A stretch of 64,000 nt of DNA from Ligustrum vulgare (Eukaryota; Streptophyta; Magnoliopsida; Lamiales; Oleaceae): the NCBI GenBank assembly GCA_963555705.1, contig OY743184.1, forward strand, positions 19,643,859 through 19,707,858. The letters run 5' to 3'. The notes beneath the pieces are model-generated. The model did not search any database. It worked only from the letters and a program-made list of their open reading frames with translations, and was not told the origin of the DNA. A program made the position numbers and the translations under genes. Shown in pieces: positions 490-63,620 of this stretch (within the stretch, counting starts at the first letter, position 1; the number at the start of each line of letters is the position of its first letter).

Positions 490-3400
490 ATGCTTAAAAC
501 TCGGTCAACTAATTGTGAGATTTCTGATCTTGACCCAGAAATTGAGAGGACTTTTCGACAGCAAAGAAGAGCAGCGCGACAAATGGCAGCTAACAACAGG
601 ACTCTTAAACAACTAGCTACCCCCAATGTGGCTCAACAGCCCTTATGTATCACTTTTCCAACTGTGGAAGAAGGAAAAACCTTCGAGCTTAAATCTAGGC
701 TCATCCACTTTTTACCAACTTTTCGAGGGAACCCCGGCGAAGACCCATATAGGCACCTAAAAGAGTACCATGTGGTTTGCGATAGTATGAGGCCCACGAC
801 CATTACCGAGGAACAAATAAAAATGTGAGTCTTCCCATTCTCATTGAAGGATGCCACCACCGACTGGCTCTATTGTCTACCATCGGGAACAGTTACTACT
901 TGGAGCGACATGAAAAGGCTCTTCTTGGAAAAATACTTCCCTGCATCGAGGGCTGGTACCATCCGAAAAGAAATATGTGGGGTGCGCTAGAACAACAATG
1001 AAACGTTATATGAGTATTGGGAGTGTTTCAAAAAGCTCATCTCCAGCTGCCCCCATCATCAGATTAGCGAGCAACTTTTGGTGCAATACTTCTACGAAGG
1101 TCTAGCACCAATGGACAGAAGTATGATAGACGCCGCAAGCGGAGGTGCGCTAATGGACAAGACACCAGAGCAAGCACGGGCTTTAATATCTAACATGGTG
1201 GAAAATACTCAGCAATTCAACTCGAGTAGGGATTCCTATGTCCGCCGAGTAAACGAGGTAAGTAGTTCTAATATTGAAGGTCAATTATATGAACTAAAAA
1301 ATCTTGTTAAGCAACTTGCTGTAGGGAATTCGAAACAAGCTAAGTCTTGTGGAATTTGTTCGAACTTTGGACATCCAACGGATACCTGTCCGGTATTGCA
1401 AGAAGAAAACAATGAACAGGTAAATGCTGCTGGAGGTTTTCCTTTCCAAAGGTAGCAATACAACCCATACTCGAACACGTACAACCCCGGGTGGAGGGAT
1501 CACCCCAACCTGAGCTACGGAAATAACAAACCCCCGGGTTTTACTTCAAACAAGCCACAAGGACAATTCCAGCAGCAAGGGACTTTCCAACCACAAGGAC
1601 AATATCAACAAAAACCTCAAAATTCAGGTATGTCTCTTGAAGATATGGTTAAGACGTTGGCAACTAACACGATGCAATTCCAACAGGATACCAAGTCAAG
1701 CATTCAAAACCTGGAAAATCAAATGAGCCAAATGGCCACTGCCATAAATAGGTTGGAATCACAATCCGGAGGTAAATTGTCATCTCAACCCGAGATAAAT
1801 CCTAAAAACGTGAGTGCCATAACTCTCCGAAGTGGAAAAGAAATTGAGGGTCCACAATTGGAACCGGCTTCACCTGAAATGGAAGGAGATGGAAAGGAAG
1901 GAGTCGGGAAAAGAATCGACGCTTCGCAAAACCCTCAGGTAAAAAATGATTCACATTTAAATGTTAAACTAACACCTCCACCTTTTCCTAGCAGGTTAGC
2001 AAGGACGAACAAGGAGAGCAAGGAAAAGGAGATGCTGGAAATATTTAGAAAGGTTGAAATCAATATCCCGCTATTGGAGGCCATCAAGCAAGTCCCCCGG
2101 TATGCAAAATTTTTAAAGGATTTATGCACTAGCAAACGGAAACTGGTGGGAAACGAGAAGGTAAGAATGGGGGAAAGCGTTTCAGCCTTATTCCAAAGGA
2201 AATTGCCTCCGAAGAGTAAGGATCCTGGTATGTTCACTGTGCCATGTCAAATAGGTAACACCAAGGTAAATCATGCACTAATAGATTTAGGAGCATCCAT
2301 TAACGTAATGCCTAGATCCACCTACATTGCATTAAATCTTACCAAAATGACTAAAACAGATGTTATCATCCAACTAGCCGACCGTTCCAATGCATATCCA
2401 GACGGGGTAGTTGAGGACGTTTTAGTGCAAGTAGGGGGGTTGGTGTTTCCGGAAGACTTTTACATACTTGATATGAATGATGATCGCTCCCCTAATTCTA
2501 CCCCTATATTGTTAGGATGACCATTCTTGTGGACCTCCCAAACTATAATTGATGTAAGAAAAGGGGTGTTAACCATGGAATTCAATGGGGAGGTAGTGCA
2601 ATTTAATATCTACGATGCAATGAAACACCCAAATGATGTATGTGCTGCTTACTCTATTAATGTCATTACTCCTGCTATGCATAAAATATTCAAGTTAAAT
2701 TGCAGGGACGAGCTAGAAACAACTATCGTGGAGTCGCTAAGGCAAGATGATGACAGCGACGTGGGTATAAGCAGGGATTTACAGGATGGGATTACTGCAC
2801 TTAATTCACTGGGACCCGCACCACGCAGGTACACCGTAAAAACAATTCAACTGACAGATTATCCTAACAAATTGCTACCTTCTATCTTGCAGGCCCCAGT
2901 GGTGGAAATGAAGTCTCTACCCGCCCATCTGAAATATGTGTTTCTGGGTGATGAAGAATCGCTTCTCGTAATTGTTTCATCCAACCTCACCAAATTAGAA
3001 GACAAGCTGGTTCGGGTCCTTCGGGAGCACAAGGAAGCGATTGGTTGGACCATCGCGGATATCAAGGGAATTAGCCCGTCAATTTGCATGCATCGAATAT
3101 TGCTTGAGGAAGGAGCTCAACCATCGATACAAGCCCAGCGAAGGTTAAACCCGGCAATGATGGACGTGGTAAAGAAAGAAATTTTGAAACTACTAGGAGC
3201 GGGGATGATTTACCCAATCTCAGACAGCAAGTGGATCAGTTTAGTCCAAGTGGTGCCAAAGAAATCCGGAGTAACGGTGGTGGAAAACAAAGATGGAGAA
3301 CTTGTACCAACTAGGGTCCAAACTGGTTATCGGGTATGCATCGACTACAGGAAGGTAAACGCTGACACTCGAAAAGATCGTTTTCCCCTTCCCTTCATGG

Positions 3401-5783
3401 ATCAAATGTTAGAGAAATTAGCTGGTCATTCCCATTATTGTTTTTTAGATGGTTTCTCAGGATATTTTCAAATTGCCATAACTCCAGAAGATCAGGAGAA
3501 AACCACTTTTACTTGTCCATTTGGCACGTTTGCATATAGACGCATGTCCTTCGGTTTGTGTAATGCTCCTGCAACATTCCAACGTTGTATGATGAGCATT
3601 TTTTCTGAATACATAGGACATATTATAGAGGTGTTTATGGACGATTTTAGTGTGTGGGGTGATTCATTTGATGCATGCTTGGATAATCTATCATTAATTT
3701 TGAAACGTTGCATTGACACTAACTTAGTCTTAAATTGGGAAAAATGCCATTTTATGGTGGATAAGGGAATTGTGTTAGGTCATGTAGTGTCGGAAAAGGG
3801 AATAGAAGTTGATAAGGCTAAGGTAGACATCATATCTGCATTACCTTACCCCGCCAATGTGCGGGATATACGATCTTTTCTTGGGCATGCAGGTTTCTAT
3901 CGCAGGTTCATCAAGGACTTTTCCAAAATTGCATCACCATTGTGCAATTTGTTGCAATTTCACCGAGCTATGCAAAAAGGCCTTTAACCAACTAAAGGAG
4001 CGGCTAACTACGCCCCCGATCATTCAACAGCCGAACTGGGATCTTCCATTCGAAATAATGTGTGATGCCAGTGACTATGCAGTGGGGGGCAGTCCTAGGA
4101 CAACGGGTTTGGAGAGCGGCCCATGTGATTCACTATGCCTCCCGAACCCTGAATCAGGCCCAAGCCAACTATACCACCACTGAAAAAGGAACTTCTATCT
4201 GTGGTATTTGCTTTAGAAAAATTTCGTCCTTATTTATTGGGTTCTAAAGTGATTGTTTTTACAGATCATGCAGCTTTACGGCACTTGTTTGTAAAAAAAG
4301 ATGCTAAGCCTAGAATCATCCGCTGGATACTTTTATTACAAGAATTTGACTTGGAAATCAAAGATAAGGCGGGGTCTGAAAATGTTGTTTCCGACCATCT
4401 TAGCCGGGTAGTGAAACCCGAGGACGACCTACCTCTGCGTGAAACCTTCACAGATGAGGGTTTATTTGCCATCGAAGCAAATCCCCCATGGTATGCTGAT
4501 TTGGTAAATTACATGACTGCTAAACTAATTCCTACTGGTTTTTCGCAGGCATAAAAGCATAAGATGAGAAGCGATGCTAAGTATTACATTTGGGATGACC
4601 CGTACCTATGGAAGAGATGCCTCGACCAAATCATTAGAAGGTGCGTGCCGGAATCAGAACACAATCAATCCTCACCTTTTGCCATTCATACGCATGTGGT
4701 GGCCATTTCGGACCTAGAAGGACGGCACAAAAGGTATTGGAGAGTGGGTTCTTTTGGCCGACCCTTTTTAAGGATGCGTACATTTTTTGTAAGTCTTGTG
4801 ATAATTTCCAAAGAACAGGTAACTTATCCCAACGAGATCAAATGCCTCAAAACCTCATTATTGTATGTGAGATTTTTGACATTTGGGGAATTGATTTCAT
4901 GGGGCCCTTTCCCCCGTCATTTGGTTGTGTTTACATTCTTTTAGCTGTCGATTATGTTTCAAAATGGGTGGAAGCAAAGGCCACCCGTACTAATGACGCT
5001 AAAGTGGTTGCAGATTTCGTAAAAGCTGTCATTTTTAGCAGGTTTGGAATACCCCGAGCTATGATCAGTGACAGAGGGACGCACTTTTGCAACCGAACCA
5101 TTGAAGCCTTGTTACGGAAATATGGAGTGATGCACCAGGTGTCAACCGCGTATCACCCCCAAACTAGCGGACATGCAGAAATCTCCAATAGGGAAGTGAA
5201 GTCCATTCTAGAGAAAACAATTCGACCGGACAGGAAGGATTGGAGCATTCGCCTTGATGATGCTTTATGGGCCTACAGAACCGCTTACAAAACACCAATT
5301 GGTATGTCTCCATACCGATTGGTATTTGGGAAACCATGCCACCTACCGGTGGAACTCGAGCATAAAGCTTATTGGGCTATCAAGCAATGTAATATGGATT
5401 GGGGTGCTGTAGGGGATCATAGGAAGCTCCAATTGCAGGAATTGGATGAAATACGGAATGAGGTTTATGAGAATGCAATGATCTATAAAGATCGAACTAA
5501 AGCATTCCACGATCAACGCATTTCTCGAAAGAGCTTTTGTGAGGGCCAGAAAGTGCTACTGTTTCAATCCCGGCTCAAATTACACCCAGGTAAGCGTCGT
5601 TCTCGTTGGGTAGGTCCATTTGTTGTTACTAATGTATCCCCCCATGGTGCAGTCGATATTAGGAGCTTGCGTACGGATAAACAGTTCAAGGTCAATGGGC
5701 ACCGTCTCAAGCCGTATTATGAGGGATTCCAAACTGAGAACTTGGAGGTGATTGCGCTGGAAAACGCCAACAAAGGGCACTAG
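490..5783 (+). pseudogene. Broken gag-pol of Athila-type Ty3/gypsy element A
   Basis: A former single Gag-Pol reading frame. In order: Gag (from 490) with a CCHC zinc knuckle of CX2CX4HX4C spacing near 1350-1395, aspartic protease (DLGASINVMP, about 2287-2316), reverse transcriptase with FMDD (about 3637-3648), RNase H (CDASDYAVG, about 4063), and integrase with the HHCC region (about 4680-4830) and catalytic core, ending at 5783. It is broken by in-frame stops at 826, 988, 1453, 2518 and 4552, and by frameshifts near 3950-3985, 4085-4095, 4175-4200 and 4655-4680. The last Cys of the integrase zinc site is Phe (CDNF). The domain order and motifs match the intact minus-strand copy at 55454-60826. 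Four of the five stops align with Arg or Gln in that copy. It cannot make a full protein. Confidence 0.93.
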
Positions 5784-36151: not shown

Positions 36152-39100
36152 ATGGATCGAGATTGGATGTACAGCAGGCGTAATACACATGAATATTTGA
36201 AAGGAGTTGAAGAGTTTATGAAATGTGCGGACGAACACATAAGAGAGAAAGGTGAAGCAATGATTTTGTGTCCTTGTTGTGATTGTAAGAATCTGAGAAA
36301 GTTTCGTAGTTTTGAGCAAGTGAAGAGTCATTTGATTCGTCGTGGGTTTAAAGAAGGTTATAAACGATGGATATGGCATGGTGATAGTATGCTTCCTAGG
36401 ACATGCACTAGTGACGATGAAGGTGGACTGCAGGAGAATAATTTAGGAAATATTGATGAGAATGATGTGGAAAATGACAATAATGATATGATAGACGAAA
36501 TGATGCGTGATATACAAGGGGAATTCATTGAAAAGCCTCATGTGTTCGATAGCTTGTTCAATGATTCTGAGAAGACTTTGTTTCCTGGATGTAGAAAATT
36601 CACAAAATTGTCTGTTGTGTTGAAATTGTATAACTTGAAAGCAAGTAGTAGGTGGAGTGATAAGAGTTTCACGGCATTACTGGAACTCTTACGAGAGATG
36701 CTTCCGGAGGATAACGAGCTTCCTAGTTCAATTTACGAAGCAAAGAAATTGTTGTGTCCAATGGGAATGGAGATCGAGAGGATACATGCATGTCCAAATG
36801 ATTGTTTACTATATCGAAGTGAGTATAAGGATTTGCATCTGTGTCCAAAGTGTGGGGCATCACGGTATAAGCGAAAGAACATGAATGCTAATTCTGAGGA
36901 TAAGAAAAGCCCTCCGGCAAAGGTGTTGTGGTACCTACCCGTAGTACCAAGATTTAAACGTTTGTTTGCCAATGCAAAGGATGCGAAGAACATGCGGTGG
37001 CATGCTGATGGGAGGAAACAAGATGGAAAACTAAGACACGTGGCCGATTCTCCTCAATGGAGGAACATTAATAGGTTGTTTCCTGATTTTGGGGGTGAAG
37101 ATAGGAATCTTAGGCTTGGACTATGTACAGATGGAATGAACCCGCACGATAATATGAGTAGTCGACATGGCACTTGGCCGGTTCTTCTAACGATTTACAA
37201 TCTTCCTCCTTGGTTATGTATGAAACGCAAGTATATCATATTGTCTTTGTTAATATCAGGGCCTAAACAACCGGGGAATGACATAGATGTTTATCTTGCC
37301 CCACTAATTGAAGATTTAAGACTGATGTGGGATGAAGGTGTATCGGTGTTTGATGCACATAGCCAGATGAATTTCACCTTACGTGCTATGATATTTTGCA
37401 CCGTAAATGATTTTCCCGCATATGGTAACTTGTCAGGTTATACGAACAAAGGACCTAAAGCATGTCCCGTTTGTGAAGAAGACACGATTGATCTTTGGTT
37501 GAAAAACTGTAAGAAAAATGTCTTTATGAGTCATAGAAGATTTCTCCCCGCTGATCACCCTTATCGAAAGAAGAAGAAGGCATTCAATGGAAAAATTGAG
37601 GATCGAGCAGCTCGCTTGCCGTTAACAGGAGGTGAGGTATATGAACGAGTTAAAAATATTGAAGTTTTGTTTGGAAAACCTTTTAAGCCTCCTCAAAAGA
37701 GTCTTTGGAAGAAGAGGTCCATATTCTGGGATCTACCTTATTGGCAACATTTATCAGTAAGACATTGTCTTGATGTAATGCACGTGGAGAAAAATGTTTG
37801 TGATAGCATCATTGGGACATTGTTGAACGTTCAAGGGAAGACGAAAGATGGTATCAAAGTCAGGAAGGACATGGTAGAAATGGGGATACGGGATCAATTA
37901 GCACCGCAAGAGTCCGAAAAACGTACTTATTTACCTCCAGCTTGCTATACTTTGTCCAGAAAAGAGAAAAAATGTTTTTGTGAGTGCCTTCATGGTATTA
38001 AGGTTCCATCTGGATACTCATCAAACATCAAAAGTCTTGTGTCGATGAAGGACTTGAAATTGGTTGGTATGAAGTCTCATGATTGTCATGTGTTAATGCA
38101 ACACTTGTTACCAGTTGCAATTTGAGGCATACTTCCAAAACATGTCAGACAAGTCATAATAAAACTTTGTTTTTTCTTCAATGCAATTTGTAGTAAAGTT
38201 GTTGACCCAGAGGCGTTGGATGATTTGCAAGCCGATATTGTTATCACTCTATGTCAATTTGAAATGTATTTCCCGCCATCATTTTTTGACGTTATGGTGC
38301 ACTTACTTGTTCACTTGGTAAGAGAAATTAAGATATGTGGTCCGGTGTTCTTGCGGTATATGTATCCATTTGAGAGATACATGGGTATTTTGAAAGGATA
38401 TGTCAGAAATCGATTTCGACCCGAAGGTAGTATCATTGAAGGTTATGCCGCTGAGGAGGCTATTGAATTTTGTACTGACTACCTTGATGACGTTGAGACT
38501 ATTGGTGTTCCTAAATCTCGTCACGAGGGAAGACTCGAAGGTAAAGGGACGATTGGATGCAAATCAATTGTCCCTAGTGTTGAATTGCGAGATAAAGCAC
38601 ACCTCCTAGTATTACAACACCTTTCTCAAGTTCATCCGTATTTGGACGAGCACATGTCCATCCTAAGGCAGCAGAATCCTTCTAAAGGTGAAAGGTGGGT
38701 AACTAATCAACACAATCGTTTATTTGCAAAATGGTTCAAAGATAGAGTCATGAAAGAGTTATCACAAACGTCGAATACCATTGTTGAAACGGTAAAGTGG
38801 TTAGCGTATGGTCCTAGCACGATTGTGAGATCTTATGAAGCATATGACATTAATGGGTATACGTTTTACACTAAACGTCAAGATGATAAGAGTGCGGTGC
38901 AAAACAGTGGAGTGACACAAGTAGCACTATCAAGAGATTTTTCAAGTGCTAAAGATACAATGCCAATAGATGCCTCGATGTCCTATTATGGTGTCATTGA
39001 AGAAATTTGGGAACTTGATTACAGGGAGTTCAAGTTTCCTCTCTTCCAATGTAAATGGGTTGATAATCGACGGGGTGTTCGGGTGGATGAATTAGGTTTC

Positions 39101-39403
39101 ACTTTGGTGGATTTTGGACGGTTGGGTTATCTTGACGAGCCATTCATACTTGCATCACAAGCCAAGCAGGTATTTTATGTTCTTGATCCTGCCGACACTA
39201 AGTGGTCAGTGGTCCTTCAAGGCAAGAGACGCATTGTTGGCATTGGTGATGTAGTAGATGAAGAATATTATGATCACTTTGATGAAGCTCCTCCATTTTC
39301 TATTGGTATACAAGGGAGTGCAACTTTAGAGGAAGATAACATTGAATCCACTTACATGCGTTGGGATCATGAAGAAGGATTATGGATTGACCGTCGTTCG
39401 TGA
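36152..39403 (+). pseudogene. TNP2-like CACTA transposase, one premature stop
   Basis: One 1083-codon frame interrupted only by TGA at 38123-38125; the same frame runs on without a shift before and after. The N-terminal transposase-associated domain (about residues 1-80) has the CPCCDCKN cysteine cluster. The transposase_21 core follows, with CPKCGA (about 235), GLCTDGMNPH (about 327) and DVMHVEKNV (about 540), which hold likely catalytic acids. The DUF4218-type region (HLVREIKICGPVFLRYMYPFERY, about 700-800) and the DUF4216-type region (FPLFQCKWVD, about 955-1030) complete it. Normal length for plant TNP2. The role is cutting and joining CACTA ends in the nucleus. The stop is a likely CGA to TGA change (Arg lost), so the gene is recently inactivated. 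Confidence 0.92.
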
Positions 39404-49328: not shown

Positions 49329-49333
49329 ATATT
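49329..49333. other. Left 5-bp target-site duplication (ATATT)
   Basis: ATATT immediately precedes TGGTATCTC, the first bases of the left inverted arm. The identical ATATT follows the outer end of the 5' LTR at 62552-62556. Five bases is the usual duplication made by plant Ty3/gypsy integrases. Confidence 0.75.
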
Positions 49334-49383
49334 TGGTATCTCATTTCTTCATCTTGTTAATTCGATACCTTGTTTTTGGGATT

Positions 49384-49420
<37 letters not shown>

Positions 49421-52009
49421 TGAAAATTTTGAAAATTTTTGTTGATTTATTTATTACTTATGACATGATTTGAATTGACTTTTATGCTTTAGTTAGAAAA
49501 TTTGGACAACATGTGAACTAAAATTTTTCTTAACATTCATCAATGTAAGACATTAATCAAACTTGAGCACATAGCCACTTTCGAATAATAACTTGTGTAG
49601 GGAGATGCTTGATATTTGTGGGGGTAAACTTGTGCACATTGAACATAGAATTGACTGAAAAATCTCAAACCTTAAGAAATTAGATCCTGACCTGAAATGT
49701 AGAACCAAACTGCTCAAGAAGTAGTTTGGGGGTAGAGAGGTCAAGTACAAGTAGGCATTGACAGATTGAGGGTCTGAAGTTTTTAATGACACATCTTTAG
49801 TGGAAGGAGTTTTAATCAACGGGTATAAACCATGTCCAGCATAAAAACAGAAAAATGCTGAAGGTCTTATTCTGCTCTTCAAATGCCTTTTTGACTCGAG
49901 TAAGTAAGTCCGAGGGGTCTTTCAAACCTGGTGCCCTAAAGTCGTCTGGCTTGGGAGTCATCGACCTAAAGCTCGCTACAGGGGTCAACTAGAAAACAAG
50001 TACGGAGAGTGGACTTACACATAAGACACTAAAACATCTTTAACTTTTCTGTTTAAGCCTTTATGACTCGGGTAATTAAGTCTGAGGGGTTCTCTGAACC
50101 TGGTACCCTAAGCTCAACTGAGTTGGGAGCTGCCGACCTAAAGCTCGCTACAGGGGTCATATAGAAAGCCAGTATGAAAAGTTCTGCACAAAGATGGTAA
50201 AAGACAAGGACATTAAAAGAAAAAGTCGTCCATATGAAAAAAAAAATTATATATAAATGGTATAAGCTTTGTTGATTAAAATTCCTAATACTGAAGTGTG
50301 GGATAGGAGATGAATTATTCTTGGTCTGTCTTGCATACTTGTCAAATCCTAGCTGCCTTGTGTGGAAAAATGCAATTTATACATGTTTAGAAATCACATC
50401 AATAGGAAAGGCCTCGGGATATGAGAGAAAAGCATTAAGGTTGTGATCATCCATGAGAGTGTCAAGAAAATAAAAAGAAAATCATTGTTGACCACATGGG
50501 ATTCGGGTTTATTACTGCATGACTAGTCACACAGTGTCAAGTATATTTTTACATGAGTTTGCATTCGATTTTTGGCTATTCACACACACACGATGAAGTT
50601 GAGCATCGGATGAATGAAAATAATTTTTGTTGTTCATTTTTCTTTTCTAAAGTGAATCGTCATTTTGGATTATTGAAGTGTATGGTAAATAAATTGACAA
50701 AACAAAAATAATTTCTGTTTGCATTTTTAGTTTTATTTTTATAGTTTAGTTTTATTTTTTGTTCGAGGACGAACAAATATTCTAGTTTGGGGGGGTTTGA
50801 TAAGTGTATTTTATACACTTATTTATCTGTCGAAATTAGGATATTATATTGTTTTTATCGAATAAATTCTACTTAATTTGTGTTTATTTGTCATTATTTC
50901 AGGGTTTATCCCAAAATCAAGAAAAGTAAGGAATTGAAGCAAATACATAATAATTGGATGAAAAGTGGAGTTAATTGAAGACGTTTTGAAACTCAAGGGC
51001 TTAATTGCACAATTGAAGACTCAAGGACCAACTTAGTTTATTTAAAAGAATTGAGATGCTTAAAGGATAATTTATTTTATTTGGGCTTAGGGTTGAATTT
51101 TGTATATATATATATATATATATACACACACGTTGCAGGGTGTGCGCAGCCGTGAGATGGGGGCAGCCGAGAGGAAATTTTTGGAATAACATTGTGGCTG
51201 CTTGGGGTAGAATTATTCTTGGAATTTGAGTTCAGAGATTACAAGGAGACAAGAACATATACACTGCTTTGGGAAGATATACATACACGGCTATTGAAAC
51301 ATTGGTAGTGGCTGCTGGTGAACTAAAAAAAGAAGGTTAGGCGGCTAAGAGAGAGACAAGAATTGAATTAACAAGGTGGTACGGCTGGATCAATCAATGT
51401 TGGAGGAATTAAATTGGCAGAAGACACATAGGAGAAGACACGGTTGGTAGCAACAAAGGACTCGGCTGTGCATTAGTGGTGATGTTAATTTTTCAATTAT
51501 TCAAACTCCAAGTTTTATGTTTATTATTTATTGTTTTCTATTCCACAAAGATGAGTAGCTAAATTTTAAATCGGGATTAACGATATAAATTTAATGTTTC
51601 TAGTTTGATTTTAATTCTCGAGTTGGTGCTTTATTTTCATGTATTGATTTTATTATTGCATTTAATGCTTGAATTGCTTGATCATCAATTCATGATTTAA
51701 TGATTGTTTTCATAATCCGAGAGGTGAGTTAACAATTAGATCACGTAATAAAATCCGGCAATTTCAACAAAAAGATAGAGATATGAATTTGTGGTTGCAT
51801 GTGGTCACTTATGAATTCCTAGGAATTTCATGCATTTAGCTAAGGAGAACTCTGACCCGCTGTAGAGATACATGGTTGACTTAGTTAAATAGGTTTAATT
51901 TGAACTCGAGAGAGGTAAATTAGATATATGCGTGAATTCGACCAAATACAATTTTAGAAAACAACTTGAGATGAGAAATTAAGCTAGAACGTTATTTCGA
52001 AATCGTTAG
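49334..52009 (+). repeat. Left arm of the 2.7-kb inverted repeat
   Basis: Positions p in this arm pair with 104212-p in the right arm (52203-54887) over all parts I checked, so there are no insertions or deletions from about 49420 to the loop. The single difference found is a homopolymer: 30 A here (near 49387-49416) against 39 T in the right arm. In plus orientation the arm holds the element's 3' non-coding region, the polypurine tract (50782-50797) and the LTR from 50798. The 109- and 63-codon frames on its minus strand are mirror copies of those in the right arm and are not genes. Confidence 0.93.
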
Positions 52010-52202
52010 TCCCGATATTCATTCAATTGTTCAAAATCCACCACTTTATTTCTTGTTTTCGTTAATTGTTTTTTTTTTGTTTAATTTGTTATTTTCATTT
52101 TAATTGATTTGTTTATTTCAGTGATTTCCAATTATTTGTCGTTTTTGCTTTTATTATTTTGCAATTTATTTACTTAATTATTTTTGTTTTAGTTTAGGAA
52201 TT
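50798..52202 (+). repeat. Plus-orientation LTR copy in the left arm (truncated)
   Basis: It starts TGATAAGTGTATTTTATACACTTA and matches LTR positions 1 to about 1408 of the 1529-bp LTR. It then jumps at GGAATTCTA into the inverted copy. About 120 bases of the LTR's 3' end are missing. An AT/AC microsatellite near 51103-51130 marks the same point in all three LTR copies. Confidence 0.9.
52010..52202. other. Loop of the inverted repeat (single-copy LTR segment)
   Basis: These 193 bases correspond to LTR positions 1213-1408 and are present only once between the arms. The junction at 52203-52205 is CTA, shared by both joined sequences (TTCTA|TTGAAT in one, GACTA|ACGATT in the other). Confidence 0.9.
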
Positions 52203-53414
52203 CTAACGATTTCGAAATAACGTTCTAGCTTAATTTCTCATCTCAAGTTGTTTTCTAAAATTGTATTTGGTCGAATTCACGCATATATCTAATTTACCTC
52301 TCTCGAGTTCAAATTAAACCTATTTAACTAAGTCAACCATGTATCTCTACAGCGGGTCAGAGTTCTCCTTAGCTAAATGCATGAAATTCCTAGGAATTCA
52401 TAAGTGACCACATGCAACCACAAATTCATATCTCTATCTTTTTGTTGAAATTGCCGGATTTTATTACGTGATCTAATTGTTAACTCACCTCTCGGATTAT
52501 GAAAACAATCATTAAATCATGAATTGATGATCAAGCAATTCAAGCATTAAATGCAATAATAAAATCAATACATGAAAATAAAGCACCAACTCGAGAATTA
52601 AAATCAAACTAGAAACATTAAATTTATATCGTTAATCCCGATTTAAAATTTAGCTACTCATCTTTGTGGAATAGAAAACAATAAATAATAAACATAAAAC
52701 TTGGAGTTTGAATAATTGAAAAATTAACATCACCACTAATGCACAGCCGAGTCCTTTGTTGCTACCAACCGTGTCTTCTCCTATGTGTCTTCTGCCAATT
52801 TAATTCCTCCAACATTGATTGATCCAGCCGTACCACCTTGTTAATTCAATTCTTGTCTCTCTCTTAGCCGCCTAACCTTCTTTTTTTAGTTCACCAGCAG
52901 CCACTACCAATGTTTCAATAGCCGTGTATGTATATCTTCCCAAAGCAGTGTATATGTTCTTGTCTCCTTGTAATCTCTGAACTCAAATTCCAAGAATAAT
53001 TCTACCCCAAGCAGCCACAATGTTATTCCAAAAATTTCCTCTCGGCTGCCCCCATCTCACGGCTGCGCACACCCTGCAACGTGTGTGTATATATATATAT
53101 ATATATATACAAAATTCAACCCTAAGCCCAAATAAAATAAATTATCCTTTAAGCATCTCAATTCTTTTAAATAAACTAAGTTGGTCCTTGAGTCTTCAAT
53201 TGTGCAATTAAGCCCTTGAGTTTCAAAACGTCTTCAATTAACTCCACTTTTCATCCAATTATTATGTATTTGCTTCAATTCCTTACTTTTCTTGATTTTG
53301 GGATAAACCCTGAAATAATGACAAATAAACACAAATTAAGTAGAATTTATTCGATAAAAACAATATAATATCCTAATTTCGACAGATAAATAAGTGTATA
53401 AAATACACTTATCA
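52203..53414 (-). repeat. Truncated 3' LTR of the young Athila element (right arm)
   Basis: On the minus strand this begins TGATAAGTG at 53414 and contains LTR positions 1-1212. It aligns with the 5' LTR at a constant offset of 9137 bases and was identical over the several hundred bases I compared. The last 317 bases of the LTR are missing because of the fold-back. Confidence 0.9.
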
Positions 53415-53430
53415 AACCCCCCCAAACTAG
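53415..53430 (-). promoter_or_regulatory. Terminal polypurine tract of the young Athila element
   Basis: The minus strand reads CTAGTTTGGGGGGGTT directly before TGATAAG, the LTR start. It primes plus-strand synthesis. Its mirror copy is at 50782-50797. Upstream lies GAGGACGAACAAATATT, echoed at the internal tract by GAGGACAATGTAACTTT. Confidence 0.9.
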
Positions 53431-54043
53431 AATATTTGTTCGTCCTCGAACAAAAAATAAAACTAAACTATAAAAATAAAACTAAAAATGCAAACAGAAA
53501 TTATTTTTGTTTTGTCAATTTATTTACCATACACTTCAATAATCCAAAATGACGATTCACTTTAGAAAAGAAAAATGAACAACAAAAATTATTTTCATTC
53601 ATCCGATGCTCAACTTCATCGTGTGTGTGTGAATAGCCAAAAATCGAATGCAAACTCATGTAAAAATATACTTGACACTGTGTGACTAGTCATGCAGTAA
53701 TAAACCCGAATCCCATGTGGTCAACAATGATTTTCTTTTTATTTTCTTGACACTCTCATGGATGATCACAACCTTAATGCTTTTCTCTCATATCCCGAGG
53801 CCTTTCCTATTGATGTGATTTCTAAACATGTATAAATTGCATTTTTCCACACAAGGCAGCTAGGATTTGACAAGTATGCAAGACAGACCAAGAATAATTC
53901 ATCTCCTATCCCACACTTCAGTATTAGGAATTTTAATCAACAAAGCTTATACCATTTATATATAATTTTTTTTTTCATATGGACGACTTTTTCTTTTAAT
54001 GTCCTTGTCTTTTACCATCTTTGTGCAGAACTTTTCATACTGG

Positions 54044-54322
54044 CTTTCTATATGACCCCTGTAGCGAGCTTTAGGTCGGCAGCTCCCAACTCAGTTGAGC
54101 TTAGGGTACCAGGTTCAGAGAACCCCTCAGACTTAATTACCCGAGTCATAAAGGCTTAAACAGAAAAGTTAAAGATGTTTTAGTGTCTTATGTGTAAGTC
54201 CACTCTCCGTACTTGTTTTCTAGTTGACCCCTGTAGCGAGCTTTAGGTCGATGACTCCCAAGCCAGACGACTTTAGGGCACCAGGTTTGAAAGACCCCTC
54301 GGACTTACTTACTCGAGTCAAA
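54044..54322 (-). repeat. Two conserved ~105-bp repeats in the Athila 3' region
   Basis: On the element strand, GACTCG(A/G)GTAA...GGGAG...CGACC followed by TAAAGCTCGCTACAGGGGTC occurs twice about 172 bases apart (54322-54217 and 54150-54044; mirrored at 49890-49995 and 50062-50168). The last 25 bases are identical between repeats, while the middles differ, with paired-looking changes in CTCAACTGAGTTGGGAG versus GTCGTCTGGCTTGGGAG. Position and conservation suggest an RNA element. Confidence 0.75.
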
Positions 54323-54791
54323 AAGGCATTTGAAGAGCAGAATAAGACCTTCAGCATTTTTCTGTTTTTATGCTGGACATGGTTTATACCCGTTGATTAA
54401 AACTCCTTCCACTAAAGATGTGTCATTAAAAACTTCAGACCCTCAATCTGTCAATGCCTACTTGTACTTGACCTCTCTACCCCCAAACTACTTCTTGAGC
54501 AGTTTGGTTCTACATTTCAGGTCAGGATCTAATTTCTTAAGGTTTGAGATTTTTCAGTCAATTCTATGTTCAATGTGCACAAGTTTACCCCCACAAATAT
54601 CAAGCATCTCCCTACACAAGTTATTATTCGAAAGTGGCTATGTGCTCAAGTTTGATTAATGTCTTACATTGATGAATGTTAAGAAAAATTTTAGTTCACA
54701 TGTTGTCCAAATTTTCTAACTAAAGCATAAAAGTCAATTCAAATCATGTCATAAGTAATAAATAAATCAACAAAAATTTTCAAAATTTTCA

Positions 54792-54837
<46 letters not shown>

Positions 54838-54887
54838 AATCCCAAAAACAAGGTATCGAATTAACAAGATGAAGAAATGAGATACCA

Positions 54888-54897
54888 CCCCCCAAAC
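54888..54897 (-). promoter_or_regulatory. Internal (second) polypurine tract
   Basis: The minus strand reads TTTCTAGTTTGGGGGG then TGGTATCTC. It closely resembles the terminal tract (ATTCTAGTTTGGGGGGG) and shares the upstream GAGGAC word. The left arm of the inverted repeat begins at exactly the T after these six G, as expected if plus-strand DNA started here. Confidence 0.8.
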
Positions 54898-55453
54898 TAG
54901 AAAGTTACATTGTCCTCAATGTAAAAGAAATAAAAAGCAATTGATAACAATACATAAAGAGGAGTTAGGTACTTCCCAGGTTTAGACGAGCGATGTGATA
55001 ACGAGAAGCTTGGTTTTGAACTTGCTTGAATGATTTCGACCCGTTTCTTGTATTTCCATGTTTGGTTGAAATTTTTACAAGTGGTGTGTTCCTCGCAAGT
55101 AAAAGATAAACAATATTAGAATCATACACACCATTGAAATAGATCAACACAAACAATTCCAACTAAAACATAGAAAAATTTGAATTTTCAAACATAGTCA
55201 ACCATCATGTATAATTTAAAATGACAAGTGCAGTTGAAGATCAAATAACAGAAGTTGGTGCTAGGAATGCTTACTTCAAAAACTCCAATAAAAAGAAAAA
55301 AAATAAAAAATAAAAAAATAAAAATGCGAGTACCACCTAACAATTAAAATGCAAAGCTTTAAATAAAGTAAAATAAATGAAAACGAAAGAAAATTGGGTT
55401 GCCTCCCAATAAGCGCTCCGTTTATAGTCTAAAGCTCGACTTTTTAGAGTCAT

Positions 55454-58400
55454 TCAATCTGCAGGTGTGATATCAAGGGTGGACTTTGCTGTTGGAAAGT
55501 CCTCGACGTAATGTTTGACTCTTTGACCATTAACCTTGAAGTTACCCTTGGTTGGATGATGGATTTCAACCGTTCCATAAGGGAAAACTTTTGCAATTGT
55601 GAAAGGTCCCGACCATTTGGATTTCAATTTTCCTGGAAAAAGCTTAAGTCGCGAGTTATAAAGCAACACTTGGTCACCGACTTGAAAGCTTCTTCTGTTG
55701 ATTCTACTGTCATGCCATTGTTTGGTTTTCTGTTTGTAGATTAGAGCATTTTCATAGGCTTCTTGTCGAAACTCATTGAGTTCATTCAATTGCAAAAGCC
55801 TAGTTTCACCAGCTTTCTCCAAATCCATGTTTAACTGTTTAAGAGCCCAATAAGCTTTATATTCCAGTTCAACAGGAAGGTGGCAAGCTTTTCCAAACAC
55901 TAAGCGGTATGGAGACATTCCAATTGGTGTTTTAAAAGCCGTCCTGTATGCCCAAAGTGCATCATCTAGCTTTTTAGACCAATCGGTTCGAGATGAGTTT
56001 ACAGTTAATTCAAGAATTTTCTTTAACTGTCTGTTAGATGTCTCCACCTGCCCACTTGTTTGTGGATGATATGGGGTAGCTACACGATGTTGAACTCCAT
56101 ATTTTCTCAACACTGCCTTAAAGGCTGAGTTGCAAAAATGAGTTCCACCATCACTGATTATTGCTCTAGGTGCTCCATACCTGTTGAAAATGTTTTTCTT
56201 GATAAAATTGATAACCACTTTGGCATCATTAGTTGGCAATGCTTGTGCCTCTACCCATTTCGAAACATAGTCAACTGCCACTAATATGTATTTGTTCGAG
56301 TATGATGATGGGAATGGCCCCATAAAGTCTATGCCCCAAACATCAAATAACTCGACCTCAAGAATGTTATTCAGTGGCATCTCATGATGGGCTGAAATGT
56401 TTCCCGTTCTTTGACATCTGTCACAGGAACGACAAAAACTATGGGCATCTTTGAACAATGTAGGCCAGTAAAATCCACATTGAAGAACTTTGGCTGCAGT
56501 TTTAGTTGGCCCAAAATGACCACCATAGGCTGAGGCATGCACACGTGAAAGAATTTGTTTCATTTCATCTTCTGGTATGCATCTTCTAATAATTTGGTCT
56601 GGACCTCTCCTGTAAAGGAATGGTTCATCCCAAAGGTAGAACTTAGCTTCGTGCATCAGCTTCTTTTTCTGTTGATATGAGAATTCAGGTGATATAACTT
56701 TACTAACCAGATAATTGACTATATCTGCATACCAAGGTGGTTTTCCAATGAAATACAACCGTTCATCCGGAAATACCTCATTGATAGCAGTTTCATCAAC
56801 TCCATTCTCATTTTCAAGTCGAGAGAGATGGTCAGCCACTGGATTTTCTGTTCCCTTTTTGTCCTTGATTTCAATGTCAAATTCTTGTAACAGGAGAATC
56901 CATCTTATTAACCTCGGCTTAGCATCTTTCTTTGACATGAGGTATTTGATTGCCGAGTGGTCAGTGTACACTACCACTTTTGATCCAATTAAATAGGATC
57001 GAAATTTGTCAACAGCAAATATCACTGCGAGCATCTCTTTTTCGGTAGTTGCATAGTGAATTTGTGCATCGGTCAGTGTTTTGCTTGCATAGTAAATTAC
57101 GTGAAGCACTTTATTTTTTTTTTGTTGTAGAACAGCTCCAACTGCGTAATCACTAGCATCACACATCAACTCAAAAGGCAGGGTCCAATCAGGTGCTACA
57201 AGCACAGGTGCAGTGATCAACTTCTCTTTCAAGGTATTGAAAGAGGTCAAACATTCCTTAGTGAATTTAAACGCAGTGTCCTTCTCCAACAAGTGACACA
57301 AAGGTTTGGTTATTTTGGAGAAGTCTTTTATGAACCTCCTGTAGAACCCTGCATGTCCTAGGAAACTTCTGATTCCTTTTACTGCGGTAGGTGGTTGCAA
57401 TTTTTCAATTACTTGCACTTTAGCTCTATCCACCTCTATCCCTTTATTTGAAATGCGATGTCCCAACACAATCCCTTCACTGACCATGAAATGACATTTC
57501 TCCCAATTTAGTACAAGGTTTGTGTCTTCACATCGCTTCAAGACTTGGGATAAATGTTTTAAACATTCATCAAAAGAGTCCCCAAAAACAGAGAAGTCGT
57601 CCATAAAAACTTCAATGGAATACTCCACCATATCAGAGAAGATTGCCATCATGCAACGTTGGAATGTAGCAGGGGCGTTGCATAGTCCAAAAGGCATTCT
57701 TCGAAAGGCAAAAGTACCATAAGGACAAGTGAAAGTTGTTTTCTCTTGGTCCTCAGGTGCTATTGGGATTTGGTTATATCCAGAATAACCATCCAAGAAA
57801 CAGTAGTGAGAGTGACCAGCCAGTCTTTCTAACATTTGATCTATGAAAGGCAATGGGAAGTGGTCTTTCCTAGTTGCTAAATTGAGCTTTCTATAATCAA
57901 TACAAACTCGCCATCCTGTGACAAGCCTAGTAGGTATAAGCTCATTGTTTTCATTCTTCTGGACAGTGATTCCTCCCTTTTTAGGCACGACGTGCACTGG
58001 ACTCACCCAAGAACTGTCTGATATTGGATAGATTATCCCAGCATCTAATAATTTAAGCACCTCCTTCCTCACAACTTCTTGTAGAGTCGGATTTAGCCTT
58101 CTTTGACTCTCTATAGAAGGTTTGTAATCATCCTCCATCAAAATTTTGTGCATGCACATGTGGGGACTGATTCCTTTTATATCAGCTATAGTCCAACCAA
58201 TAGCCATTTTATGCTCCCTCAACACTCTGATTAATCTTTCCTCTTCCAACTTAGACAAATCATTTGCAATGATGACAGGAAGAGTATCTGACTCGCCAAG
58301 GTAAGCATATCTCAAATGTGTTGGCAATGATTTTAGTTCTAAATCAGGAGCTTTTTCAATTGATGGAATCGGCTTTGATGTACTCTCGCCAAGTGGAGCA

Positions 58401-60826
58401 AAGTACCTAGCCCTGTTATATGATATGGGAGGTGATTCTTCCAACTGCATTGCTCTCATCCTGAGAGCGTGATGATCCGTTTTTACAGTTTTTGATTCCA
58501 TTATGCAAATTGCAAGATCATCAGTTAAGTGTTCATTACGAATTACTTCACCGACCAACTGGTCAGTTACTTCAACTCTAAAGCACGAGTCTTCAGTGTG
58601 GGGAAATTTCATTGCTCTGAACACATCGAATTGAACTTGTTCATTGTTGACCCTCAGTGTCATTTTCCCTGCACCCACATCAATCAATGCTCTGCCCGTG
58701 GCGAGAAATGGCCTCCCGAGTATTATTGGGATATTGCTATCTTCTTCCATATCAAGGATGATAAAATCAGCTGGAAATATGAATTTATCAACCTTAACCA
58801 AAACATCTTCAATAATCCCTCTTGGGTGCTTAATCGATCGATCAGCCAAAAGTAGTGAGACAGTGGTTGGTTGAGCTTCTCCCAACCCCAATTTAGTGTA
58901 CACTGATAAAGGCATTAAATTTATGCTTGCGCCAAGATCACACAAAGCATTTTTGAAAGAATTTGTACCTATGGTACACGGTATAGTAAAACTCCCAGGA
59001 TCTTTCAATTTAGGTGGAAGTTTTTTTTGTAAAATAGCACTACACTCTTCTGTTAAGCACACGGTCTCATAGTTTTCCAGCTTGCGTTTGTTAGCCAAAA
59101 TCTCTTTCAAGAATTTGGCGTAACTAGGCATTTGTGCAATTGCATCTGCAAATGGGATATTAATATGCAGTTTTCTGAATACTTCCATGAATTTTTCAAA
59201 CTGCTTATCCATTTTGTGATTTTGCAGACGTTGAGGAAATGGAATAGGTGGGACATATTTCTTAACAGGAGTAGGTGCTTTTTCTTTGGATGCTTCATTT
59301 TGAGTTTCGGGTTGGGTTAACTGATAAAACCCCTCAGTCTCACTTTCGACTTCATCGTTTACTTGTTTCTCTGCCCTCTCAGGTCTTTTTACATGTATCT
59401 CAGGCAATTGAACCCCACTACGTGTGGTGATTGCTTGCACATGCTCCCTAGGATTTTTAATAGTATTGCTTGGTAAAGTCCCAGGTGCTCGCTCAGACAA
59501 TTGTTGAGCGATTTGACTGATTTGAGTTTCAAGCTTTTTGATTGATGCAGACTGACTTTGCAAAGATGTTTGATGCGTTTCGAACATCTTGTCAGTCTTT
59601 TGCATATGTTGCTGAAACATCTCCCCCAAACTAGGCCTTCTATCCGGTTGTTGATTAGACTCATTTTGATTGTTTGACCATTTAAAGTTCGGGTGTTGCT
59701 TCCAACCAGGATTGTAGGTGGGGGCATATGGATTGTTTTGCACAAAATTGACTTGCTCATCTGTTGAAATCAACAACATACAATTCTCTGTTGAGTGGTT
59801 AGCGCTACAATTCTCACAGATTACCTGTGATTGAATAGCGTTAACTCCTTGTGATGTAAGCAACAAATCAACCTTTTTTGTCAGCGCAGCTATTTGTGCG
59901 TTTGTACCGGTAAGTGCATCTATATCATGCATTCCAGTAGCTCTCCTTTGTACTACTCTTTCAGATGGGAACATGGTATGTGTTTTTGCAATGAGTTCTA
60001 CCAGGTCCCAAGCTTGGTTGACACTTTTATTTGTGATAGACCCACCAGCTGATGAGTCCACTATTGATTTGTATTGTGGTGACAACCCAGAGTAAAAGTA
60101 CTGAACTTGAAGGCCTTTGTTATATCCATGATAAGGGCATTTTCTAAGAAGATCCTTAAATCTACCCCAAGACTCATAAAAGCTCTCACCGTCTAGTTGT
60201 TGAAACGTGGATATCTCCAACCTCAGTTTAGCGACCTTAGCAGGTGAGAAATATTTGTTACAAAATTTTCGAGCTAGGTCATCCCATGTGGTTATGCTAA
60301 ATTCAGGTTCAGAATCAAGCCACTCCAATGCACTATCTCTTAAAGTGTAAGGAAATAGTCGCAAACGAATGGCATCATCATTTATGCCTTGAAATTGGAA
60401 ATTTTGGCACATTCTCCCAAATCTTGAAACATGTGCATTGGGGTCCTCGTGTGCCTTTCCAAAAAATTGGAGATTATTACTGAAAAGGTTTATTAAATCT
60501 GCTCTCAATTGAAAGTCATTCCTTCCAAAAGGCGGATATAATATACTAGAACGGTTTGCAGTGGCAACAGGAGTCAAGAATTGACCCATAGGAAGATCTC
60601 CTACATTATCATCTTGAACATTCTGTTGGTTGTTTTGATTGATTTGCAATGCTGCATTTTGACCAGGAGGTAATGCAGCTGCATTCGGGTTTAGTTCAAT
60701 GTGTTCCAAAGGATTGATTGGATTGGCCATTTGGTTCAGATTTTGTTGTTCCCTAAGTCGTCCTCTAAAGAATTGTTCAATTTCAGGTTCGAAAGGTAAA
60801 AGATTTCCCCTTTGCGAACGGAGCAT
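55454..60826 (-). CDS. Intact Gag-Pol polyprotein of the young Athila element
   Basis: A single open frame of 1790 residues, no stop or shift. Gag comes first, with a capsid-like region ([13 protein letters not shown] to about 310) and a zinc knuckle near 336-350 ([13 protein letters not shown], spacing CX2CX3HX4C, one residue shorter than usual). Protease has [10 protein letters not shown] (about 626). Reverse transcriptase has FMDD (about 1072). RNase H has [11 protein letters not shown] (about 1220). Integrase has the HHCC zinc site (about 1430-1475) and the D-D-E core (DFMGPFP about 1502, SDGGTHF about 1557, QVETSNR about 1596). Domain order, tRNA-Asp primer site and sequence style are those of the Athila lineage of Ty3/gypsy. 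The start ATG is the first in frame, 173 bases after the PBS. All catalytic motifs look intact, so it could supply proteins in trans, although the element's own 3' LTR is incomplete. Confidence 0.95.
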
Positions 60827-60998
60827 AAAAGGACAAGAAGAAATTTTTTTTTTTTTTTTTTTTTGAAAATTTTGAGAATTTTTGATGTTTTTGTTGTTTT
60901 TGTTTATTATGAATCAAAATGCTAAAAACTAAAGGCAAACTAAATCTAAAAGCTAAGAATGCTAAAAATCAAAATAAATGAATAACAAATTAAAATAG

Positions 60999-61016
60999 TC
61001 CCCGGCAGCGGCGCCA
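60999..61016 (-). promoter_or_regulatory. Primer binding site (tRNA-Asp) of the young Athila element
   Basis: The minus strand reads TGGCGCCGCTGCCGGGGA, complementary to the 3' end of tRNA-Asp with one mismatch. Six bases (AGTTTT) separate it from the CA that ends the 5' LTR, the same spacing as in element A. Confidence 0.9.
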
Positions 61017-61022
61017 AAAACT

Positions 61023-62551
61023 TGTTGGAAAAAATAATCGCAAGTGTACGATATCGCTAACAAGTAATAAAAATGGACTTTTGAGTCCGAGTTGTCGATC
61101 CCACGAGGACTATTTAATTTGCTATAAATTTACTTCGATTCAATAGAATTCCTAAACTAAAACAAAAATAATTAAGTAAATAAATTGCAAAATAATAAAA
61201 GCAAAAACGACAAATAATTGGAAATCACTGAAATAAACAAATCAATTAAAATGAAAATAACAAATTAAACAAAAAAAAAACAATTAACGAAAACAAGAAA
61301 TAAAGTGGTGGATTTTGAACAATTGAATGAATATCGGGACTAACGATTTCGAAATAACGTTCTAGCTTAATTTCTCATCTCAAGTTGTTTTCTAAAATTG
61401 TATTTGGTCGAATTCACGCATATATCTAATTTACCTCTCTCGAGTTCAAATTAAACCTATTTAACTAAGTCAACCATGTATCTCTACAGCGGGTCAGAGT
61501 TCTCCTTAGCTAAATGCATGAAATTCCTAGGAATTCATAAGTGACCACATGCAACCACAAATTCATATCTCTATCTTTTTGTTGAAATTGCCGGATTTTA
61601 TTACGTGATCTAATTGTTAACTCACCTCTCGGATTATGAAAACAATCATTAAATCATGAATTGATGATCAAGCAATTCAAGCATTAAATGCAATAATAAA
61701 ATCAATACATGAAAATAAAGCACCAACTCGAGAATTAAAATCAAACTAGAAACATTAAATTTATATCGTTAATCCCGATTTAAAATTTAGCTACTCATCT
61801 TTGTGGAATAGAAAACAATAAATAATAAACATAAAACTTGGAGTTTGAATAATTGAAAAATTAACATCACCACTAATGCACAGCCGAGTCCTTTGTTGCT
61901 ACCAACCGTGTCTTCTCCTATGTGTCTTCTGCCAATTTAATTCCTCCAACATTGATTGATCCAGCCGTACCACCTTGTTAATTCAATTCTTGTCTCTCTC
62001 TTAGCCGCCTAACCTTCTTTTTTTAGTTCACCAGCAGCCACTACCAATGTTTCAATAGCCGTGTATGTATATCTTCCCAAAGCAGTGTATATGTTCTTGT
62101 CTCCTTGTAATCTCTGAACTCAAATTCCAAGAATAATTCTACCCCAAGCAGCCACAATGTTATTCCAAAAATTTCCTCTCGGCTGCCCCCATCTCACGGC
62201 TGCGCACACCCTGCAACGTGTGTGTATATATATATATATATATATACAAAATTCAACCCTAAGCCCAAATAAAATAAATTATCCTTTAAGCATCTCAATT
62301 CTTTTAAATAAACTAAGTTGGTCCTTGAGTCTTCAATTGTGCAATTAAGCCCTTGAGTTTCAAAACGTCTTCAATTAACTCCACTTTTCATCCAATTATT
62401 ATGTATTTGCTTCAATTCCTTACTTTTCTTGATTTTGGGATAAACCCTGAAATAATGACAAATAAACACAAATTAAGTAGAATTTATTCGATAAAAACAA
62501 TATAATATCCTAATTTCGACAGATAAATAAGTGTATAAAATACACTTATCA
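61023..62551 (-). repeat. Complete 5' LTR of the young Athila element (1529 bp)
   Basis: On the minus strand it runs from TGATAAGTG (62551) to TTTTTTCCAACA (61023). The first bases form a hairpin, TAAGTGTA-TTTTA-TACACTTA. A long TATATA run at 62225-62244 could provide a TATA box. ATATT follows at 62552-62556. It is the only full-length LTR of the three copies. Confidence 0.93.
62225..62244 (-). promoter_or_regulatory. TA-rich promoter candidate in the 5' LTR
   Basis: A (TA)n run, about 310 bases into the LTR on the element strand, followed by ACACACACGTTGCAG. It is the most TATA-like sequence in the LTR and occurs in all three copies, but there is no direct evidence of transcription start. 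Confidence 0.35.
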
Positions 62552-62556
62552 ATATT
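62552..62556. other. Right 5-bp target-site duplication (ATATT)
   Basis: ATATT directly follows the outer end of the 5' LTR (...CTTATCA) and equals the five bases before the left arm at 49329-49333. Joining the flanks gives a simple empty site, GCATGATATTCCCGTC. Confidence 0.75.
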
Positions 62557-62693: not shown

Positions 62694-63090
62694 TTATGTT
62701 AAAATATTATTGCTGAAATCAAAGAAATCCACGTCTAAGGTCAAAGAATATTAAGAGAGAATTACAACATTTTCGGATGCATTGATTATTTTTTGTTTAT
62801 AATTATTTCAATTTTTAATACAATTTTTTAACCACACATCTTTTCTCTCTCCAATTTTTAACCATTTATTTACCTCGAGATTTTAAAAAAAAAAAATTAT
62901 GTTAAAATATTATTGCTGAAATCAAAGAAATCCACGTCTAAGGTCAAAGAATATTAAGAGAGAATTACAACATTTTCGGATGCATTGATTATTTTTTGTT
63001 TATAATTATTTCAATTTTTAATACAACTTTTTAACCACACATCTTTTCTCTCTCCAATTTTTAACCATTTATTTACCTCGAGATTTGAAA
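62694..63090. repeat. 203-bp tandem duplication
   Basis: TTATGTTAAAATATTATTGC... to ...TTTACCTCGAGATTT is repeated head to tail (62694-62896 and 62897-63090), nearly identical except for the length of the A run at the junction and a few bases. It lies between the Athila insertion and the LEA-like exon, with no coding sequence. Confidence 0.95.
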
Positions 63091-63620
63091 AAAAAATGTT
63101 TATAATCCAAAAACCTACCGCCGAACAAAGGCTTCACTGTCCAGTGTCCATTATGTTTGGAGTTTTTAAAATATTTTCTTCCTCCATTATATGTTCTCTC
63201 TCATTAATGCTTCTCTTCTCTTCTCTTCTTCATCATCCATTTTCTATTAGTAGTTTAGTACTTGCAAATTAACATGTCAAATCATCGCTCACATTCCTTT
63301 AAAATTAATATGGAACGATGAAATGATTTTAATCGCGATTACCGTTGACTTTAAAATCCAGTTGGACTAAGCTCATGTCAATTATATAGATCCCTTGCCA
63401 CCATCGATCTCGTTTAGCAGAATGAAAAACGAGGACTTAACATTAAAATATTCTAATACATTTTCAAATCATTATCAGTGCCAAGAAACCCAAAGAACTA
63501 ACTCTTCAAAATGTTGTTATTTGGTCAACTAGAGAACTTTAAGACATGCACTAGTCCTTTCATTACATGGAATAAAAAGTAAGCTCTGAATTGCAGAATT
63601 AAAAATTGCCCAAACAATCT
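63091..63620. other. 3' flank of the LEA-like gene
   Basis: Non-coding. It would contain the 3' UTR of the minus-strand LEA-like gene (roughly 63480-63620). No repeat or open frame of note was found. Confidence 0.35.

Follow-up and report, generated by a model that had tools for sequence, protein, structure and literature searches.

The question raised by this locus is how a retroelement with a long terminal repeat (LTR) at only one of its two ends came to carry a target duplication at both. The locus lies in a stretch of 64,000 nucleotides from Ligustrum vulgare (assembly GCA_963555705.1, contig OY743184.1, positions 19,643,859 to 19,707,858 of the forward strand; hereafter the window), where a fold-back Ty3/gypsy element of Athila type occupies positions 49334-62551 (13,218 bp) between two copies of ATATT. 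We observed that its left border is the base directly after a second, internal polypurine tract (ePPT). According to our analysis, with a probability of roughly 0.8, the insertion arose from two plus strands, one primed at the terminal polypurine tract (PPT) and one at the ePPT: their tails were joined, each strand was copied as far as its 5' end, and integrase inserted the product.

Target duplication and left border

The element opens at 49334 with TGGTATCT and closes at 62551 with CTTATCA (Table 1). The duplication that flanks it is exactly 5 bp long and the match ends there; BLAST and the repeat tool extend the LTR match by one base, a chance identity with the first base of the duplication. 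A sequence-only reading of the window had described a 13.2-kb structure with an inverted 3' part, ATATT exactly at both borders and a normal 5' LTR end on the right, and the coordinates bear this out, the complete LTR ending at 62551. It had also recognised the left border as the non-LTR end of an inverted copy, but had missed that this end is the first base after the ePPT.

The two inverted arms (49334-52009 and 52203-54887) show no mismatch and a single gap, in a poly-A tract. Over about 4,085 compared positions there is no substitution (95% upper bound on divergence about 0.0007), and the insertion is therefore young. The 5-bp duplication of an integrase-mediated insertion is present at both borders, and a single insertion would imply a former site reading ...ACTAGCATGATATTCCCGTCACTTT... 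with one ATATT. A random pair of 5-mers matches with P of about 0.0018-0.0019 in the whole window and with P = 0.003 within the local flanks; taken alone, the duplication is suggestive and not proof. Among ten ordinary close copies of the element that we tried, the five with both ends located all carry perfect 5-bp duplications (GTGGA, CATAG, ATAAC, GATAT and ACCAC) and the ends TGATAAG...CAACA; in the remaining copies one end (two copies) or both ends (three copies) were not found.

The intact mate of the left border reads TCTAGTTTGGGGGG/TGGTATC, the slash marking the border position (longer context TTACATTGAGGACAATGTAACTTTCTAGTTTGGGGGG/TGGTATC), and the terminal PPT reads TCTAGTTTGGGGGGGTT/TGATAAG (longer context TTTGTTCGAGGACGAACAAATATTCTAGTTTGGGGGGGTT/TGATAAG). 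The two tracts are twins: each has a hairpin with an 8-bp stem and an AGGA loop 11 nt before its G run, and such hairpins (perfect stem of at least 6 bp) occur three times on both strands of the 64 kb, always at these PPTs. Placing the left border at the ePPT explains both its position and its TG, and since this position and the duplication coincide, chance is unlikely. The best reading is that the left insertion end marks the point at which a plus strand primed by the ePPT would start. A further PPT-like run of the linker, AGTTTGGGGG (at 54488 on the minus strand and 49724 on the plus strand), is followed by TAGAG and not by TG.

Two contigs of Athila type (L001 and L002), 99.6% alike, were found in bacterial assemblies titled Solirubrobacter and Geminicoccus, and are probably plant DNA present as a shared contamination. 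Their reverse transcriptase (RT) is about 70% identical to that of the window element. Each has one AGGA-loop hairpin, at the ePPT and with a 6-bp stem, and a G run after pol that is followed by AGG instead of TG.

Integrase might also have used a complementary DNA (cDNA) broken at random and ending in TG, the ePPT being a coincidence. The known ends of the family, TGATA (unique 3' region, U3), TGTTG (unique 5' region, U5) and TGGTA (ePPT), share little, and integrase may therefore need little beyond TG; TGNT is common to all three, and TGGTA resembles the TGATA of U3. However, the full-length strand (52203-62551) contains 754 TG dinucleotides, of which only one follows a run of at least five G, and six insertions in this genome start at the same base (see below). 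We consider such a break very improbable.

Table 1. Positions of the element parts in the window. Strands E and F are the two proposed plus strands.
Feature	Position	Strand
Left copy of the target duplication, 5 bp, ATATT	49329..49333	
Strand E, putative plus-strand segment started at the ePPT, 2872 nt, comprising the ePPT start, linker, PPT and LTR positions 1-1408	49334..52205	+
Poly-A tract, 30 nt (39 nt in its mate), the sole difference between the arms	49387..49416	+
Hairpin before the terminal PPT, inverted arm, 8-bp stem with AGGA loop	50758..50777	+
Terminal PPT, inverted arm	50781..50795	+
LTR positions 1-1408, inverted arm, no mismatch to 5' LTR	50798..52205	+
Tail-to-tail joint, 3-nt overlap CTA common to both strands	52203..52205	
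Strand F, putative plus strand, 10349 nt, beginning at U3 of the 5' LTR, crossing the whole element and ending at 3' LTR position 1212	52203..62551	-
Truncated 3' LTR, positions 1-1212, full-length arm, no mismatch to 5' LTR	52203..53414	-
Terminal PPT TCTAGTTTGGGGGGG, full-length arm	53417..53431	-
Hairpin TTTGTTCG-AGGA-CGAACAAA before the terminal PPT	53435..53454	-
ePPT TCTAGTTTGGGGGG; the next sense base, 54887, corresponds to the left border	54888..54901	-
Hairpin TTACATTG-AGGA-CAATGTAA before the ePPT	54905..54924	-
gag-pol frame, uninterrupted, 1790 codons: gag, protease, RT, RNase H, integrase	55454..60826	-
Primer binding site (PBS) TGGCGCCGCTGCCGGGGA, 6 nt past the LTR end	60999..61016	-
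Complete 5' LTR, 1529 nt, TGATAAG...CCAACA	61023..62551	-
Right copy of the target duplication, 5 bp, ATATT	62552..62556	

Recurrence of the ePPT border in the genome

The genome searched comprises 51 contigs with a total of 1.385 Gb. For the ePPT end, 40 matches out of 2504 candidates were scored; two are the window's own, and 36 of the other 38 keep the ePPT context, the exceptions (L051 and L068) being rearranged. With the exact pattern, 105 matches have a G before TGGTATC and eight have any other base, namely the window, the C20 insertion described below, a derivative on C14, one tandem duplication, and four sites that are normal apart from a changed base. When the pattern was loosened but the normal G run excluded, there were 32 matches, and we read the contexts of 30: the ePPT context lies within 80 nt in 20 of them, a foreign flank in six, a tandem duplication on C6 in one and the C14 derivative in one, and the other two (L101 and L120) are, by reading, unrelated sequence. 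The two matches beyond these 30 are on C23, with normal context, and at C20:34067940, whose context was left out. Eight of the 32 have no more than one mismatch; five of these have a foreign flank, two are joined to element sequence, and the last is a normal ePPT that has gained bases. The border patterns miss copies whose flank ends in G.

A foreign flank thus stands directly before the base after the ePPT in six insertions, that of the window (on C17) and those on C20, C4, C8, C9 and C15, and upstream of the border in the latter five no match to the element pieces was found. The C15 border has two mismatches to the border pattern.

The C15 insertion (53819960-53826532, minus strand) begins at ...GGTGTCCAT/TGGTATC and ends at ...CTTATCA/TCCATCTAG, between perfect duplications (TCCAT/TCCAT). 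Its parts follow one another in the order ePPT, PPT, LTR, PBS, leader, about 750 nt that replace most of gag-pol and show no match to the element pieces used, its own ePPT, and an inverted LTR. The long strand reaches this ePPT (...CTAGTTTGG) and then passes to the inverted LTR via the overlap TTGG; the left and right LTRs are 98.4% identical (22 mismatches in 1735). We read C15 as the product that would be expected if a PBS-transferred, ePPT-primed strand had been joined to a PPT-primed strong-stop strand.

The C20 insertion (29724273-29733711) begins at ...GTATTAT/TGGTATC and ends at ...CTTATCA/ATTACACAC. Its long strand ends at CGAACAAATAT, immediately before the terminal PPT, where it passes into LTR sequence via ATAT; the RT part of pol has no match within it. 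The arms differ at 57 of 1451 positions and the LTRs at 43 of 1329, a difference that is not significant (p = 0.36), as one old event requires. The far border is the start of an inverted LTR in C15 and C20, and in both the long strand ends at a PPT, the place at which it would run into the following plus strand or the RNA primer of that strand. In the window, C20 and C15 alike, both termini appear to lie at plus-strand starts of the PPT type.

The sequence-only reading had proposed a search for other fold-back copies with flanking duplications, and C15 and C20 are such copies. Its view that an aberrant linear cDNA was inserted as one unit by integrase agrees with the 5-bp duplications of the family and with these two similar-ended insertions (five and four of five bases duplicated, respectively).

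At the visible ends of C4, C8 and C9 no duplication was found, and we count them as ePPT borders only. In C4, matching stops near the LTR end; a stretch of 10 bases that also occurs in the left flank, AAATGGTAAT, lies about 140 nt past the last LTR match and was left uncounted because CA does not precede it. In C8 the joint holds about 75 nt of filler and the inverted LTR is cut, and C9 is broken up by another repeat.

Substitution-free arms and a short unpaired centre are also what an assembly or read artefact, such as a missed-adapter palindrome, would produce. From such an artefact one would expect a mirrored flank rather than a halt at the ePPT together with a target duplication, and for C20, with its 57 arm substitutions, an artefact is very unlikely. 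We give this explanation little more than a token chance at the window.

A rearrangement after an ordinary insertion, or a pair of adjacent insertions in inverted orientation that underwent deletions, would likewise leave an inverted copy, and both an inverted joint (L039) and deletion derivatives (L070) are known in the family. Here, however, the left break would have to fall exactly at the ePPT and be accompanied by a matching 5-mer (about 0.002), the arms carry no substitutions, and the arrangement recurs at C15 with a perfect duplication. We regard this origin as extremely unlikely, and return below to the joining of two plus strands.

The rearranged copies are of several kinds. L051 belongs to the whole copy L069 (C14:171500-181400), a two-LTR deletion derivative with the duplication GTCAT that has lost its PBS; its internal region starts at the base after the ePPT, fused to AGTTTT, which in normal copies stands before the PBS, and a short duplicated piece lies at the fusion. 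This fusion looks like a strand transfer from the ePPT end through TGG. L068/L070 is joined at poly-A tracts. L070 (C17:47801000-47810000) is a deletion derivative in which gag-pol was lost between two poly-A tracts; its 5-bp duplication GGAAC stands at both flanks and again, with further flank-like bases, before the 3' LTR, suggesting a conversion from the 5' side. In L039 (C7:61485239-61486239), an LTR end with AGTTTTTG is fused to the inverted poly-A region that follows an ePPT.

Proposed joining of two plus strands

The joint of the window element reads ...GAATTCTAACGATT..., and its CTA can be assigned to either strand. In the genome search, for which 40 of 1782 candidates were scored, no match other than the window's own extends across the joint. 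The resolved joints have overlaps of 3 nt in the window and 4 nt in C15 and C20. Folds at the switch points are not unusual (z = -0.83 and -0.93); a 10-bp palindrome lies near one of them.

In the scheme that we favour, plus strands would be primed from two tracts that resist RNase H, the ePPT as well as the terminal PPT. The PPT-primed strand F would make the second strand transfer and then run through the element to position 1212 of the 3' LTR; the ePPT-primed strand E would extend to LTR position 1408 and be displaced or otherwise free. The free 3' ends of F and E would pair through CTA/TAG (3-4 nt across the cases), and each strand would then be copied to its own 5' end, by the RT of the element or by a host end-joining polymerase. 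The product would be a linear duplex with the ends TGATA... and TGGTA..., both of them plus-strand starts, and with no U5 end; integrase would accept both ends and leave the 5-bp duplication. C15 and C20 may be further products of this kind, C15 with the roles swapped, in that the ePPT-primed strand would have been transferred and joined to a strong-stop strand made of U3, the repeat region (R) and U5. The scheme further predicts insertions with a U3 at each end, from two PPT-primed strands joined by their tails.

Three other ways of making the palindrome were considered and rejected. Autointegration does not fit a joint at LTR positions 1408 and 1212, away from the LTR end. Simple snap-back of one strand would stop copying at the ePPT, yet strand F runs on to the 5' LTR, and two strands are therefore needed. 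Local copying of a strand that has just been displaced is at odds with the window and C20, where copying would enter downstream of the growing end, so that a pairing between the free 3' ends of two strands fits better.

The joining could also have taken place in the nucleus, where the host would have end-joined a shortened but otherwise normal double-stranded cDNA to a second one that already ended at the ePPT, before the product integrated. Overlaps of 3-4 nt, seen at all three resolved joints, are typical of microhomology end joining, and the filler at the C8 joint points the same way. However, an ePPT-ended duplex would normally need a plus strand as its template, so that ePPT priming is still required, and more steps are involved. 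We consider this course of events unlikely, though it overlaps with the pairing of strands F and E, in which either RT or a host polymerase may do the joining.

Several observations weigh against the scheme of two joined plus strands. The duplication of C20 (ATTAT/ATTAC) matches at four of five bases, and at least four matches are expected by chance with a probability of 0.024. Half of the six insertions (C4, C8 and C9) are without a settled far border. Strand F of the window stops within the LTR and not at a PPT, as the long strands of C15 and C20 do, and the poly-A tracts of the otherwise identical arms of the element differ by 9 nt in length. The spacing of the two PPTs differs (GGGGGGGTT/TG vs GGGGGG/TG), with two bases between the G run and TG only at the terminal PPT. 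Finally, a control pattern placed 34 nt upstream speaks for the ePPT border, with 18 matches, none with 0-1 mismatch, compared with the 8 of 32 at the border, but it demands two bases more than the border pattern does.

Repeated ePPT-ended inserts in one genome are footprint evidence that plus strands are primed at the ePPT, and C15 is such evidence that ePPT-primed strands can make the second strand transfer. Integrase may ask for little more than a TG end, and a simple genome test for plus-strand starts would be available in any element with two PPTs. There would also be a route from one reverse-transcription error to a long inverted repeat. For the wider proposal we see about even odds: the ePPT and the TG that follows it would act as a working alternative terminus, from which strands either transfer (C15) or pair with PPT-started strands, recurrently yielding palindromic, integration-competent cDNAs that have two plus-strand starts and no U5 end; once inserted, these might continually supply long hairpin RNA that can silence the family.

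Family assignment and comparison with known systems

The domain order of the window element (gag, protease, RT, RNase H and integrase in one frame, scanned as five separate pieces) is that of the Athila lineage, with a protease match slightly below the Pfam cut-off (24.2 vs 24.3 bits), and the predicted extra PPT between pol and the 3' LTR is likewise a feature of this lineage. The PBS, TGGCGCCGCTGCCGGGGA, is putatively of the transfer RNA (tRNA)-Asp type. An env-like gene was not found after pol; open reading frames (ORFs) of at least 100 amino acids between pol and the LTR amount to one antisense frame of 109 codons, with a copy in each arm. Diaspora is likewise reported to be without env, and to have a tRNA-Asp PBS at 5 bp, like Calypso (sections of PMC1142308). 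Two scans of viral contigs found no relatives of the element.

Other features accompany the element. An Rfam match to the plant snoR71 (60123-60229, plus strand; 51.1 bits, cut-off 40) lies in the gag region, antisense to the element, and may be a captured small nucleolar RNA or a family model picking up this retroelement. Two tandem copies of a 203-bp repeat (62694-63099) lie just past the right border. A broken second Ty3/gypsy element (1630-5783, plus strand) has protease, RT and integrase pieces in separate frames, with about 73% identity across 450 nt of the RT region. Two ORFs at 36152-39403 (plus strand) match the transposase families tnp2, Transpos_assoc, DUF4218 and DUF4216 of Pfam, and presumably belong to a CACTA-type transposon. 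Elsewhere in the genome, nine LTR matches are listed on C6 (38073272-38335802), spaced about 32.8 kb apart in a single orientation, indicating a large tandem array that carries the element.

Among known systems, the 5' inversions of LINE-1 are inverted retrocopies with target duplications, made by target priming with no integrase and no PPT; the inverted copy and the duplications are alike, but the machinery differs. The central PPT flap of human immunodeficiency virus 1 (HIV-1) and PPT2 of Ty1 represent a second plus-strand start with overlapping plus strands. To our knowledge, the internal start of HIV-1 or Ty1 is not known as an integrated terminus. The window element would share with both, which are mentioned in excerpts of PMC2829016, the second start and the overlapping plus strands, and the same excerpts call the role of multiple PPTs in plus-strand synthesis unclear.

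A literature search, mostly outside subscription papers, gave no ePPT-ended or inverted Athila insertions among the matches listed, and a paper on Athila in Arabidopsis (PMC2410132) makes no mention of PPT or polypurine, inverted copies, template switch or strand transfer. Complex LTR retrotransposons formed by template switching are direct-repeat dimers with three LTRs and 5-bp duplications (Sabot and Schulman 2007, PMC1950507). They resemble the window element in being aberrant reverse-transcription cDNAs inserted as one unit with such duplications. Their outer LTRs, however, are normal and direct, while the halves of the window element are inverted and one end is the ePPT; it does not show the combination of three LTRs with direct outer LTRs.

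For the upstream PPTs of Sireviruses, it has been argued that without an attachment signal a PPT cannot give rise to cDNA able to integrate (excerpts of PMC2829016), whereas the family of the window has a TG after its ePPT. An extra PPT between pol and the 3' LTR is described in Athila4 and Calypso (Wright and Voytas 2002, cited in excerpts of PMC2829016). The window element is like these in its gag-pol order, its extra PPT in the linker and its 5-bp duplications, and differs from what is described there in that its extra PPT marks the terminus of the integrated DNA.

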